NCBI GenBank assembly: GCA_009917405.1
Contig: QZED01000017.1
Location: 1-38,621, forward strand
Direction: 5' to 3'
Source: a bacterium c-19
GTDB lineage: Bacteria; Bacillota_I; Bacilli_A; Erysipelotrichales; Erysipelotrichaceae
Length of the DNA: 38,621 bases
Positions 10,698 through 16,731 of the stretch are shown one piece after another. How positions within the stretch are numbered: the first letter of the stretch is position 1; every line of letters begins with the position of its first letter. A model generated the notes under the pieces. That model did no database searches, had not been told where the DNA came from, and saw only the letters and a list, made by a program, of their open reading frames with translations. Position numbers and translations under genes: made by a program.

Positions 10698-11810
10698 TTA
10701 ACGCTTAAAGAAACGTGGGATATTCCCTTCTTCTTCTTCATTATCGATGACCGGTTCCTGATAACGCGGAGTTTCGCTTTGTTTTACTGCCGCAGGAATC
10801 GACTGCGGTTGAGCAAAGCTTGCAGTTGCGGTTGCTTTCGGAACCGCTTTGATAATATTTTCCTTAGGCTGATCAAAGCCGGTCGCAATTACGGTTACGA
10901 TAATAGAATCGCCGAGCTTTTCGTTAATCGCAACACCGAAGATCGCATCAATATCATTTCCGGCTGCCTCTCTTACCAACGCCATTGCATCTTCGGCATC
11001 AAACAGCGTGATACTTTCTCCGCCGGTAATATTCACAATCGCATTTCGTGCGCCGGTAATCTGTGCTTCCAAAAGCGGTGACTGTATTGCTTTTTCTGCT
11101 GCAGCACGCGCCTTGTCTTCACCTTCTGCCATACCGATACCGATTAAGGCACTTCCCTGATTTTCCATAATTGTTTTCACATCGGCAAAGTCTAAGTTAA
11201 TTAGAGCCGGTACAGCAATCAAGTCAGTAATTGTTTGAACACCTTGGCGCAATACATTATCAGCTGCTTGGAACGCTTCTACCAACGGCTTTCTGCCGAT
11301 CACTTCAATCAAATTATTATTGGAAACGATAATCATAGAATCTACGTATTCACGAAGTTCTGCAAGACCGCTGTCCGCAGACAACAGACGTTTTTTTCCT
11401 TCAAAGGTAAACGGCTTTGTAACAATCGCAACCGTTAATGCCCCTTCTTCTTTCGCAATCTTCGCAAATAACGGAGCTGCACCAGTTCCGGTACCGCCGC
11501 CTAATCCGGCTGTGATAAATACCATGTCACTGCCTTTGATTGCTTCTCTGATTTCGCTTTCGTTTTCTTGTGCGGCACGACGTCCCACTTCAGGATCGGC
11601 ACCTGCTCCCAAACCTTTGGTAATTTCTCTGCCTAAAATGATTTTATTTTCAACGGGAGATTGATTCAGTACTTGAAGATCGGTGTTCGCTACATAAAAT
11701 TCAACACCCTTGACACCTTCGGAAACCATGCGATTTACCGCATTGCAGCCACCGCCGCCGATCCCGAATACTTTAATTTTAGCCACCTGTTCAAATTGTA
11801 AATCACTCAT
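10698..11810 (-). CDS. ftsZ: Cell division GTPase FtsZ
   Basis: 370 residues, normal FtsZ length. The N-terminal [17 protein letters not shown] and the tubulin signature [12 protein letters not shown] (GTP binding) are present, as are the T7 loop residues NLDFADV. It polymerises into the Z-ring at midcell. The last residues GNIPRFFKR form the short C-terminal peptide that contacts FtsA and other partners, after a Pro/Gln-rich linker. GAGGAAAG precedes the start. It lies 25 bases after ftsA; the usual murein and division genes of the dcw cluster are not next to them in this window. Confidence 0.98.
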
Positions 11811-11835
11811 ATTTACTCTTTCCTCGCTCTCTTAT

Positions 11836-13089
11836 CTATTTGTCGCTTAACAGCATACTCTTAAGTTTTTTGGTAAAGCCGCTTTCATCATCTACAGTTG
11901 TTTTATTCGCGCACTCTACTGATTTTTCTACATCTCGCTGGTCGCAGCTTGTGCGCTCATCCTTCCGCACCGCAAGCTGTGATTTCCAGTTATAGAATAG
12001 ACCTAAGCAAGTAACCAAACCACAATCTCTTGCCCCGATGGTTTGAGGAACATATACTTGAGATTGCGCATTCAATTCCCTGGCCATTTTTTCAATTTCT
12101 TGAATTTCTAAGCCTTCTCCGGTTAAGATATAGCGTACATTACCACTGTCTATAATCGGCTGACATGTTTCATTAATCAATTTGATCCATTCATTGATCG
12201 GATCTATCACACATTTATAGACATCGCGTTCACTGATCTGCCGAGATGTCCCCGCTTCCGACCAAATATATACCGTGGAATCACCGACTTCTTTTTCTTC
12301 CAATGCACAAGTATTTTGAATTAAGCGAAACCCTACATCAATCGGAAGATTATACTTATCCTTCAATGGTGACAACCAATTTCCGTATCCGCTGTCCAAT
12401 ACTTCACAGTTTACAAGTTTACCATGCGTAAATAAAGAAAGTGTTGTATTTTGTCGTTCCAAATCAATTAAGACCACATATTTATCCACAGTCTGTTCAA
12501 AGATTGCAGCTTCTTCGGCAATCGCATAGGAATCTAAACAAATGTCAATGATTTCCAATCCCGACTTTTCCGCACAGCGTGCATAAGAATAGACTATTTC
12601 TTTATTGGCGAACAACAAGTCAATATTCATCGTTAATACGTCACATACCTCATTTAAAGGCATCTTTCGTGAAGTAATACCATTTGTTATGTATTTAATA
12701 CAGCCGATATTTACAAGCTCTAAATCTTGATCAGGCTTATATGAAATCGCTTCATTGATACCGCCTTGGATATGTGATAAACGAACACGCTTACTGCCGT
12801 CTTCAACAAAAACATTTACTTTTTTATTAAAACGAGTAACATCGATCGATGGTATTGCCAACAATACTCTCTCAATTCGATATCCCAACACAGTAGAGGC
12901 ATTTTGTACCGCCTTCATCACCGCATTTACAATATTTTGTTCGTCAACAACAACCTTGTTGATAATACCAGTTGTTTTTACTCGCTCGACACGCAATATA
13001 TTGAATCTTGTCTCATGAAATTCACCGACGACAAGTCGTACTTCATGATCCGCAATTTCCAGTGCCGCGAATATTTGTTTGCGCTTCAT
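11836..13089 (-). CDS. ftsA: Cell division protein FtsA (divergent)
   Basis: 417 residues. An actin-like ATPase that tethers FtsZ to the membrane. Visible: phosphate-1 region ALEIADHEVRLVVGEF, a 1C domain with GYRIERVLLAIPS, the phosphate-2 region VVLIDLERQNTTLSLF, and the adenosine motif YILTGEGLEIQ. Sequence is clearly diverged: the standard LDIGTSKV, VDIGGGTTD and LTGG forms are altered (for example DLERQNTT in place of the DIGGGTT type). The C-terminal FTKKLKSMLLSDK can form the amphipathic membrane helix. Gene order ftsA-ftsZ supports the name. AAGGGGG stands 12 bases before the ATG. Confidence 0.92.
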   Translation of the reverse strand: MKRKQIFAALEIADHEVRLVVGEFHETRFNILRVERVKTTGIINKVVVDEQNIVNAVMKAVQNASTVLGYRIERVLLAIPSIDVTRFNKKVNVFVEDGSKRVRLSHIQGGINEAISYKPDQDLELVNIGCIKYITNGITSRKMPLNEVCDVLTMNIDLLFANKEIVYSYARCAEKSGLEIIDICLDSYAIAEEAAIFEQTVDKYVVLIDLERQNTTLSLFTHGKLVNCEVLDSGYGNWLSPLKDKYNLPIDVGFRLIQNTCALEEKEVGDSTVYIWSEAGTSRQISERDVYKCVIDPINEWIKLINETCQPIIDSGNVRYILTGEGLEIQEIEKMARELNAQSQVYVPQTIGARDCGLVTCLGLFYNWKSQLAVRKDERTSCDQRDVEKSVECANKTTVDDESGFTKKLKSMLLSDK

Positions 13090-13227: not shown

Positions 13228-13259
13228 AAAAAAAGGGTAATCATTTTTCATGATTACCC
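13228..13259 (-). terminator. Terminator of the glucosaminidase operon
   Basis: GGGTAATCAT-GAAAA-ATGATTACCC followed by seven T (minus strand). The stem overlaps the stop codon at 13254. Confidence 0.9.
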
Positions 13260-14807
13260 GTTATGCTCATCATCGTTTTCATCAAACAAATGCTGTTCAT
13301 CATCATAAGGCTTCATATGAAGAGTATGCTCTGCATTCATCGGTTCATATTTCCACGAATCGAAAGGTTCAACTTCTTCTTCAAGTTTCTCCTCATGCTT
13401 CGTTGCTCGTGCTTCTTTTGTCTTCTTTGAAGTCGGCTCGATTACAGCCTTACGCTTTTTCTTTTTCAGTATCAGAACCAGCAATAATAACACCAGTGTA
13501 AGCACATTTGTTCCTGCCAGAACGATCAAAACAATCATTCTTAGCTTCATATCTTCATTTAACTGATCATAATCAGTTTGCTTCACCGCAGCCTGATCAC
13601 TGTAAAGCTGTAATGTATTTTCGCTTTTCTCATAAAGGTAATAATGCATTTTCCCTCGATCATCCATCAAATACAACAGCACGTAATTTTCAAACTCTTT
13701 ATCCTGAAATATCCATCCGTTGAACTTAAGTGAATCTACTTCAACTTCACCGAAAAGCATACCTGTACGCGTATGTAATTCCTTAGGGATATCAATGATC
13801 GCAACCTGACGCCCTAATAACGCGATCGGCTTGTACAGCGATGTGATCATTTTACTACCTTCATCATATAGATAAAAATTCTTTTCGTTCTTATCGTCAA
13901 TCATATAAATAATAGTAAGATTAGACAGATTACTGTGCCATGCTTCTACATTCTTGCCTTCCAACGAAACCATTGTCTTCTCAAATGTATCAGGTATTTG
14001 TGCATCACCGGTATTTTTCACAACACCCAGCTTTTTGCCGTTATACTGAACAAATACATCCGGTGATTCATCAACCATTGCCTTTATCATATATTTTTTT
14101 ACGGTTCCGTCTTCAGCTGTTACACTGATCGTTATTTCGTTGTTTCCCGGTTTCAAAGATATTTCTCCGGTACCGCTGACAGTCGCCGATTCATCTTGCG
14201 CAACTGCCTGTACGGTCAGTGAAGTAACATTTTTTTCCAAAACTACTGTATAATTTGTTTTATCAGATGAAAATTCAGGAGACAGTGTTCCTTTTGATAT
14301 ACTTAATGATTTTAAATCGGCATTACTTGATTTTGGTTCTTCAGGTGTCTCTTGATTGATATCTGGTGTCTCATAGGTCGGAGTATTATAGGATGGAGAA
14401 TTATCTCCATTGCCTGAATAATCACCGTTTCCCGTGTTACCACCGCTGTTATCAGGGGGACTTACCGGTGCTGTGATATTCACGGTGGTACTTCCCAATG
14501 TAACTCCGCTTGCATCTTTCATTTCAGCAACATCTGTCGCATCTCCAGTCACAAAAGTTATTGTAGCAGTTCCAGCACTGCCTGCTTTAGCTGTGGCAGT
14601 CAATGTTTTTCCACGATCACACCAATTATCATTACTGATTAGCGATGCATTAGACGCAGAAACATTAACGCTTCCTTCAATATTACCACACGTCGCCGTC
14701 GCAGTAAATGTATCACCAGGAGCGACACTGACTGCTTTAATCGTTAAAGCTGTAAACAAGAACAATCCCATTGAAACAATACATAATTGGTTCAATCGCT
14801 TTTCCAT
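13254..14807 (-). CDS. Membrane-anchored extracellular protein with Ig-like and cadherin-like beta-sandwich domains
   Basis: 517 residues. Order: signal segment (about 7-25); an Ig- or cohesin-like beta domain (about 28-113) with a Cys40/Cys63 pair; a Gly/Asn/Ser/Pro linker (114-160); a cadherin-like beta-sandwich domain (LKSLSISKGTLSPEFSSDKT... GNNEITISVTAEDGTVKKYMI, about 165-243); a further extracellular part with two similar segments (IIYMIDDKNEKNFYLYDEGSKM and LLYLMDDRGKMHYYLYEKS); one membrane helix (about 422-448); a basic stop-transfer run KKKKRK; an acidic cytoplasmic tail of about 65 residues. Its start codon lies 17 bases after the dockerin enzyme stop, with AAAGGA between. I infer a cell-surface partner or anchor for that enzyme. 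A true cohesin is usually longer than the N-terminal domain here. Confidence 0.85.
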   Translation of the reverse strand: MEKRLNQLCIVSMGLFLFTALTIKAVSVAPGDTFTATATCGNIEGSVNVSASNASLISNDNWCDRGKTLTATAKAGSAGTATITFVTGDATDVAEMKDASGVTLGSTTVNITAPVSPPDNSGGNTGNGDYSGNGDNSPSYNTPTYETPDINQETPEEPKSSNADLKSLSISKGTLSPEFSSDKTNYTVVLEKNVTSLTVQAVAQDESATVSGTGEISLKPGNNEITISVTAEDGTVKKYMIKAMVDESPDVFVQYNGKKLGVVKNTGDAQIPDTFEKTMVSLEGKNVEAWHSNLSNLTIIYMIDDKNEKNFYLYDEGSKMITSLYKPIALLGRQVAIIDIPKELHTRTGMLFGEVEVDSLKFNGWIFQDKEFENYVLLYLMDDRGKMHYYLYEKSENTLQLYSDQAAVKQTDYDQLNEDMKLRMIVLIVLAGTNVLTLVLLLLVLILKKKKRKAVIEPTSKKTKEARATKHEEKLEEEVEPFDSWKYEPMNAEHTLHMKPYDDEQHLFDENDDEHNG

Positions 14808-14823
14808 TCTGTTAAATTCCTTT

Positions 14824-16731
14824 CTAGTTTAGTAATTGAATCCCTAAAATATGATTTTTTATCATTACATAATCCATAGAAGATATTTTTCCATCCTTAT
14901 TCACATCAGCCGCCTTAGCACTAGATCCCTTTAATGTACTGATTTTCAAAATATGGTTTTTTATCAATACATAATCCATAGAACTGATTTTATTATCCCC
15001 GTTCACATCCCCCGGCTTATAAGTTTCCTCGGGCTGTTCAGGTTTTGGCGCAGTACCACCGCTTGTGCCACTATTGTTGCTGTTACCATTATTATAGGGA
15101 AGCAACTTCACATATTCACCGGAAACATATCCGTACATTTTGTTAAAATCATAAACATAAGTTCCCTGTGTACTGCTTGTGCGATCGTTATTTAAAGTCG
15201 GATCGCTTTGAATTTTGTACCAAACATTATTATTGTTAATACTCTGTCCCGTTACCTTTTCTTTGATCAATACCGGGTAGTTTCCGATATTTTTCGTATT
15301 ATACAAAGCTACAGAAGAGCTATTGGCATCTTTTCTGATCTGTAGATTTGTCATTTTTTCAACAATTCCAATTTGATATTTGCCGTAATCCTTTTTGTTA
15401 TTCTTTTGCGATACGATATTGGCAATCGCCGCTGCTTTTTCACCCCAATAAGGATCTGATGCATATTTGACATTCATACCGCTTCCCTTATCGCCTAAAT
15501 GTCCGCCGTAATAACGCCCTGAATAATCCTTAGGGTCCAAATATCCGTCTGAGATAAAATCTCTGGCATGATGCGCTACACTGTCCGCCGGTGTATTGTA
15601 TTTATTAGCATTACCGCCCGGATTATAATCAGTTGCATTATGACCGAAGATATTATTTTTTTCATTGGCAATTTTGCTGGTTCCCCACGCAGATTCATTT
15701 GCCGCAACTCCATACATCAACAGTGCATTCGCCCCGTATTTATTCTGATTGCTGATAAAAGCCGAGCCGAGATTGAGCATCTTGCTGTCAAAATCAACCA
15801 TTCCTTTGGTATAGTTATCTAACTGCTGTGCCGTAAAATCTGTTTTACTGCGGTGTGATAAAAATTGAAAATAATTATAATACGGGTCATCAGGATTAAT
15901 AGAATGCTCATACGTATTCTTTTTATAATCGTCGATCATCTTTTCATAAGAAGTATAAAAATAATGTCCATCATAACTAAAATATACGACATTGGATTTC
16001 ATATAATCCGGTTTTAAACCGACATTGATTGCACTGGAATAATACGGTGAAGTCAAATCCACATGGATATAATGACGAATGATTCCGTTTTCTACACGAT
16101 AAAAACCTACATATACATCATCGCCATAATCACGGACGATGACCTCTCCGGCATTCACACAACCTTCAACACCTGCCATACGAAATTTTATCTTACTTTT
16201 ATCTGTGGAACAGTAGCCTAAAAAAGCTGCATCAGCACCTGTTGAACCGTTGATATAACCAGTATAGCCGGTTAAAGTTTCTGTATAAGTCGTATTTTGA
16301 TTTGATGGCTTGGTATGGAAATCAACTACGCCGTATTTAATTTTAGAATAGTCTGTTTTCGCAACCACTTTGGTACCACCCGCTGTTCGCAGCATTCTGC
16401 GACGGTTTACGCTTGCGGCTGCATCTTCATAATTATCAAAAGATGCAATCGTTGTTTCCTCATTACCAAAAGTCAGGACAACATCAAAAGAATCGGCACT
16501 CTCCATCTTTTCCTGTTCTAGTTCCTGTGGATCCACCTCAGGTACTTTAATCATTGTTATATTTCCGTCCGCATCCATTGCTGGATATTCATAATATTCC
16601 CCGTCACTGTTCAGTAAATCGTTCTCTGTATTTGATTGAAATTCATCCTGTTCACTTGCATTCACTGCAACCGAAACATTCATACCTAAACAAGAGATAA
16701 GGAATAACATTAATATTTTTTGCATTTTCAT
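14824..16731 (-). CDS. Secreted N-acetylglucosaminidase with SH3 and dockerin type I domains
   Basis: 635 residues. Signal peptide 1-25. The glucosaminidase (GH73-type) domain spans about 305-445 with GVAANESAWGTSKIANEKNN, where Glu346 is the likely catalytic acid, and a NIFGHNA turn. An SH3-like domain covers about 455-545. After a Gly/Asn/Ser linker comes a dockerin type I repeat pair: GDVNGDNKISSMDYVLIKNH and ADVNKDGKISSMDYVMIKNH (about 574-632), with the D-x-N-x-D-x-x calcium loops. It should cleave the glycan strand of peptidoglycan outside the cell. A dockerin normally plugs into a cohesin on another protein. Promoter TTGCTT-17-TATAAT lies upstream. It is the first gene of a two-gene operon. 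Confidence 0.92.
   Translation of the reverse strand: MKMQKILMLFLISCLGMNVSVAVNASEQDEFQSNTENDLLNSDGEYYEYPAMDADGNITMIKVPEVDPQELEQEKMESADSFDVVLTFGNEETTIASFDNYEDAAASVNRRRMLRTAGGTKVVAKTDYSKIKYGVVDFHTKPSNQNTTYTETLTGYTGYINGSTGADAAFLGYCSTDKSKIKFRMAGVEGCVNAGEVIVRDYGDDVYVGFYRVENGIIRHYIHVDLTSPYYSSAINVGLKPDYMKSNVVYFSYDGHYFYTSYEKMIDDYKKNTYEHSINPDDPYYNYFQFLSHRSKTDFTAQQLDNYTKGMVDFDSKMLNLGSAFISNQNKYGANALLMYGVAANESAWGTSKIANEKNNIFGHNATDYNPGGNANKYNTPADSVAHHARDFISDGYLDPKDYSGRYYGGHLGDKGSGMNVKYASDPYWGEKAAAIANIVSQKNNKKDYGKYQIGIVEKMTNLQIRKDANSSSVALYNTKNIGNYPVLIKEKVTGQSINNNNVWYKIQSDPTLNNDRTSSTQGTYVYDFNKMYGYVSGEYVKLLPYNNGNSNNSGTSGGTAPKPEQPEETYKPGDVNGDNKISSMDYVLIKNHILKISTLKGSSAKAADVNKDGKISSMDYVMIKNHILGIQLLN

Follow-up and report, generated by a model that had tools for sequence, protein, structure and literature searches.

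Anchoring scaffoldins of cellulosomes that have a single cohesin hold this cohesin at the cell surface, where it receives dockerin-bearing enzymes. In well-studied glucosaminidases of the GH73/PF01832 type, SH3, LysM or choline-binding domains provide the attachment. A pairwise cohesin-dockerin system has been described for C. perfringens, with NagJ/X82 cohesins, NagH and a GH31 protein carrying both modules (PMC12997984). The gene pair analysed here lies on the minus strand of a 38,621-nucleotide stretch of DNA from bacterium c-19 (Erysipelotrichaceae), which we refer to as the window, and it shares features with each of these systems. It resembles the anchoring scaffoldins in that a protein held at the surface would receive a dockerin enzyme, but here the candidate receptor is one non-catalytic membrane-helix protein with a socket of about 90 residues that lies below Pfam recognition, there is no multi-cohesin scaffold, and the enzymes are of peptidoglycan type. 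The likeness to C. perfringens consists in single cohesins and non-cellulosomal, pairwise complexes, and canonical N-terminal domains of orthologous partners match the NagJ cohesin; however, the cohesins of C. perfringens are located inside host-glycan hydrolases, whereas the putative counterpart is found on a dedicated membrane receptor beside a wall hydrolase gene. With the GH73 glucosaminidases the enzyme has the catalytic domain and motif in common, but it carries a dockerin instead of their attachment domains. In the open-access literature, we found no paper describing such a pair. We regard the pair as real and functionally coherent and as working like a cohesin-dockerin attachment. Very likely the two genes encode a private plug and socket: the dockerin would dock on the N-terminal domain (N-domain) of the partner and thereby hold the glucosaminidase at the membrane.

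The features of both genes are listed in Table 1. The catalytic domain of the enzyme matches PF01832 with 64.3 bits (Pfam cut-off 30.2), and the two hallmarks of GH73, namely this match and a catalytic glutamate, are both present, with Glu346 located within the motif. From family membership, the substrate is probably peptidoglycan. Type I dockerins are recognised by two duplicated EF-hand-like calcium loops (D-x-N/D-x-D-x-x-x-S-x-x-D) together with a score over the family cut-off. The C-terminus of the enzyme displays all of these: it matches Dockerin_1 (PF00404) over all 57 positions with 67.4 bits (cut-off 22.9), and loop 1 (D575, N577, D579, S583, D586) as well as loop 2 (D609, N611, D613, S617, D620) are complete. 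This agrees with the first-pass annotation of the window, according to which the enzyme ends in a full calcium-binding dockerin pair.

Table 1. Features of the glucosaminidase gene and the partner gene in the window.
Feature	Position	Strand	Basis
Exported glucosaminidase ending in a dockerin, 635 aa	14824..16731	-	ORF; PF01832 and PF00404 above cut-offs
Enzyme signal peptide, ~residues 1-26	16654..16731	-	Inferred: hydrophobic core, then NASE-type end
Glucosaminidase (GH73-type) catalytic domain, residues 324-438, likely catalytic Glu346	15418..15762	-	PF01832; NESAWG motif
Type I dockerin, residues 573-629, near-identical repeats, two complete calcium loops	14845..15015	-	PF00404
Partner anchored in the membrane, 517 aa, putative receptor for the dockerin	13254..14807	-	ORF; AF2 model
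Partner signal peptide, ~residues 1-25	14733..14807	-	Sequence; helix 2-16 in model
N-domain, ~residues 26-115, minimised cohesin-like candidate receptor	14463..14732	-	AF2; hhalign to orthologous cohesin-type; covariation
Cadherin-like beta-sandwich, residues 165-242 (spacer)	14082..14315	-	PF12733, 40.6 bits
Third all-beta region, predicted extracellular, ~residues 250-405	13593..14060	-	Model; conserved profile; no Pfam match
Membrane helix, residues 412-451, KKKKRK at inner end	13455..13574	-	Model helix 410-451; positive residues inside
Cytoplasmic tail, acidic, predicted disordered, EEEVEPFDSWKYE motif	13257..13454	-	pLDDT < 50
Intrinsic terminator ending the gene pair	13235..13259	-	Perfect 10-bp stem and seven T

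The partner gene starts 16 bp downstream of the enzyme gene on the same strand. Because of this short gap and the strong terminator hairpin directly behind the partner gene, the two genes look like a single transcript ending at the terminator. The AF2 model of the partner has a mean pLDDT of 75.5, with ordered domains near 90. The earlier description of the partner as a single-helix membrane protein next to the enzyme is borne out by its signal peptide and the one membrane helix of the model. Of the two outward-facing beta-sandwiches that had been described, both are present in the model, the N-domain sandwich spanning residues 33-111 and the cadherin-like one residues 165-245, but a third all-beta region, spanning residues 252-401 in the model, had been left uncounted. 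This membrane-proximal region matches no Pfam family, yet all 52 full-length relatives, which belong to at least three families, retain it in conserved form; no part of the partner is more strongly conserved than the C-terminal beta region. A fold search with the full model brought up cadherins and S-layer proteins, but simply as chains of beta domains. Other members of the genus (L071, L073, L074) share the EEEVEPFDSWKYE motif of the predicted cytoplasmic tail, which is missing from more distant aligned relatives.

Relatives of the partner were detected in 37 of 79 related genomes and in 58 of 392 genomes across the phylum, both counts including matches to the cadherin-like domain only, and a scan with the single protein returned three close relatives from uncultured Erysipelotrichaceae and an Erysipelotrichales bacterium. 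Gene neighbourhoods were read for the 52 full-length relatives, including the one in the window; two are cut at contig ends, leaving 50 with an intact upstream neighbour. The N-domain is present in 48 of these, and the gene directly upstream encodes a C-terminal dockerin in 48/48 cases, which are relatives and not independent samples (the dockerin match of L113 is weak). The distance to the upstream gene ranges from -17 to 30 bp, with a median of 12. The N-domain is missing from L101_4 and L102_4; the upstream neighbour has no dockerin in either case (0/2), and no dockerin was found at E 0.001 or better in their genomes (G052, G053). Throughout, the dockerin is constant while the enzymes vary: among 49 upstream genes, 28 encode glucosaminidases, three metallo-beta-lactamase folds, one a GH25 enzyme and one an amidase, and others are SH3-bearing proteins with no further Pfam class. 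The three metallo-beta-lactamase-fold proteins are ComEC-like, and each lies beside its own N-domain partner (L087:3136-4356, L091:3399-4649, L097:5521-6801); a dockerin is unexpected there. Some relatives encode a second, unpaired hydrolase (GH25) that likewise bears a dockerin, as seen in the neighbourhood of L079 and in its counterpart L105.

The N-domain itself was compared with cohesins by profile and by fold. In orthologues from related families it shows a pattern typical of cohesins, such as GSWQMDLNYDKSYLQL...YTFTFKALKTG, and that of one member (L108) passes PF00963 with 26.4 bits (cut-off 24.1). A profile of these cohesin-type N-domains ranks solved cohesins first (5g5d, 3l8q, 2y3n, 6kgc and NagJ, the last with structures 2w1n and 2jh2). 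The profile of the window type, of about 90 residues, aligns with the cohesin-type profile end to end over 96 columns (hhalign, probability 94.9, score 48.9), and the controls score far lower: none of 60 column shuffles exceeds 13.1, Big_2 gives 23.6 and the cadherin-like domain 12.8. Compared directly with external cohesins, the window-type profile matches weakly (hhalign probability 6-13), and the link therefore runs only through the cohesin-type orthologues. The N-domain of the window does not reach the curated PF00963 cut-off. Cohesins are defined by a nine-stranded jelly-roll beta-sandwich, and the AF2 model of the N-domain alone (pLDDT 93.2, pTM 0.83) is a compact sandwich of about seven strands. 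In structure comparison, 88 of its 94 residues align with the C. perfringens cohesin 2jh2, giving a Z of 6.2. Many Ig-like folds do equally well, and the Ig-like domains of GH2 enzymes and adhesins range from 7 to 7.8, the best value belonging to GH2 enzymes. As Foldseek returned no match for the N-domain at E 0.001 or better and the full model matched mere chains of beta domains, the fold search is undecided between cohesin and Ig. According to the curated model, the N-domain is thus no longer a cohesin, and the predicted fold is that of a minimal, Ig-like sandwich. Because of its position and profile, we posit that it most likely descends from a cohesin that was reduced to this compact form. 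A third, longer type of N-domain (111-118 aa, MYIIQGN motif; L092:2127-2462, L094:5675-6028, L095:5533-5865) occurs in two genera and pairs with an LLKLEK type of dockerin.

The dockerin and the N-domain change together. In a partial Mantel analysis of pairwise distances among 47 loci, with the effects of the C-domain, the cadherin-like domain and the enzyme removed, they correlate at r 0.388 (p 0.0005), a value reached by none of 2000 permutations (maximum 0.21). The correlation survives dereplication, stands at 0.395 when the signal peptide and the pre-dockerin segment are added as covariates, and is also found within the reduced-type families only (0.42, p 0.0005) and within the third family only (0.64, p 0.001). 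No such relation exists between the dockerin and the cadherin-like domain (0.044, not significant) or between the enzyme and the N-domain (-0.05). Single pairs of loci illustrate the exchange. L093 and L094 are 87% identical in the enzyme and 92% in the cadherin-like domain, but only 41% in the dockerin and 35% in the N-domain; for L079 and L080 the respective values are 86%, 92%, 49% and 43%. Of the two receptor regions considered in the first-pass annotation, the unusual cohesin-like candidate at residues 28-113 is supported by linkage, by the loss of the dockerin neighbour wherever the N-domain is missing, by cohesin-type orthologues, by profile scores well above shuffles and by covariation. 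The cadherin-like domain (residues 165-243) is an unlikely receptor, since it is kept where the dockerin is missing and does not covary with it.

Could the dockerin find its receptor elsewhere in the cell? Following the suggestion in the same annotation to look for cohesins and other dockerins, we searched the genome, which comprises 2.24 Mb on 184 contigs and is 98.4% complete. It encodes three dockerins, on the glucosaminidase, on a 1735-aa M60 peptidase (L238:2211-7418, C110) and on a 2460-aa GH31 protein (L237:3299-10681, C119), and not one PF00963 cohesin above the cut-off of 24.1; the N-domain of the partner scores 10.4 bits. Membership in a cellulosome, for which a multi-cohesin scaffoldin and many dockerin enzymes would be expected, was rejected on the basis of the three dockerins, the one N-domain in the partner and a genome in which no multi-cohesin protein was found. 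The GH31 protein combines its dockerin and cohesin-like modules with F5/8C and FIVAR modules and has a membrane helix at the C-terminus; together with the M60 peptidase it forms a separate set of host-glycan type within the genome. Further sub-threshold PF00963 matches are located on C108, where the protein is a repeat-rich surface protein, C141 and C98. Canonical cohesins that bind the dockerin in place of the partner, the finding that would have contradicted the proposed pairing, did not appear, the sole other candidate being the top sub-threshold stretch of 19.5 bits, which follows immediately on the dockerin of the GH31 protein itself. That this module is the true receptor, and the partner an unrelated co-transcribed surface protein, is very improbable in our view. 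C. perfringens and Akkermansia have GH31 proteins that combine a single cohesin with a single dockerin (PMC12997984), which makes such a module plausible and, for the same reason, gives it a natural place elsewhere. It adjoins a dockerin of a different type, and the M60 dockerin is a further candidate ligand. Moreover, four related genomes (G003, G018, G055, G067) retain exactly one dockerin each, on the glucosaminidase of this pair, with no PF00963 match at E 0.01, and it is the partner N-domain with which the dockerin covaries.

The covariation bears on two other explanations as well. The N-domain may be a mere Ig-like spacer, with the partner regulating or stabilising the hydrolase through its other domains and the dockerin binding something else. 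While the generic Ig-like fold predicted for the N-domain and the strong conservation of the C-terminal beta region would fit, we consider this unlikely: it is the N-domain, and not the conserved C-part, that is missing together with dockerins and covaries with them, and its orthologues are recognisable cohesins. Alternatively, the dockerin and the N-domain might change together merely as neighbours replaced on a single recombination tract, with no binding between them. They are only about 100 bp apart, and signal peptides likewise differ in the swapped pairs. However, across all pairs the partner signal peptide, which is located between the two, shows no covariation with the dockerin (-0.083, not significant), whereas the N-domain does. 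In the comparison of L079 with L105, within one genus, the dockerin of the unpaired GH25 enzyme, several kb off, has switched type in the same direction (56% identity, against 87% in the catalytic part), although the three genes between the two dockerins are 81-97% identical, and inside a genome the two dockerins are more alike (79%, 67%) than either is to its orthologue. Two separated dockerins following one N-domain make a single recombination tract hard to invoke, while a shared receptor predicts this behaviour. Such a linkage effect would also leave the association in all 48 N-domain-bearing relatives unexplained; we regard this explanation as extremely improbable.

For the pairing of dockerin and N-domain, the most likely mechanism is the following. 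The glucosaminidase would be exported, and its calcium-bound C-terminal dockerin would dock on the N-domain of the co-transcribed partner, the cadherin-like and second beta regions of which would hold the socket above the membrane. Such tethering would keep the peptidoglycan hydrolase on its own cell surface, where it may act on the cell's own wall, instead of being lost to the medium. In some relatives a second hydrolase may share the same socket. The genomic context offers a hint as to the site of action. Genes for a divergent FtsA and for FtsZ follow the pair on the same strand (window 10698-13089), separated from it by the terminator; the window FtsA scores 91.7 bits against ncbifam ftsA, below the cut-off of 175.85. 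The pair directly precedes an ftsA-like gene in the window and at eight further loci (L070, L071, L072, L074, L076, L081, L082, L112), the ftsZ being named by profile in the window only and recognised at the eight loci as a gene of ftsZ length after the FtsA-like sequence. Since ftsA and ftsZ directly follow the pair in this lineage, we suggest that the enzyme possibly acts at cell division. More tentative, and in our opinion less likely than not, is a broader reading: the N-domain may constitute a separate class of dockerin receptor, non-cohesin by the curated model and with an Ig-like fold, whose many distinct plug-socket types would be exchanged between genera and would keep wall hydrolases of the cell itself, along with a small number of further enzymes, tethered to the membrane, here beside ftsA-ftsZ.

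Dozens of naturally paired, divergent small sockets may be of use as orthogonal protein tags, and each plug-socket pair yields a directly testable prediction. For the biology of these bacteria, the pair would extend cohesin-dockerin assembly from the digestion of food polymers to the placing of a bacterium's own wall hydrolase, and it would account for the orphan dockerins of gut Erysipelotrichales without recognised cohesins.
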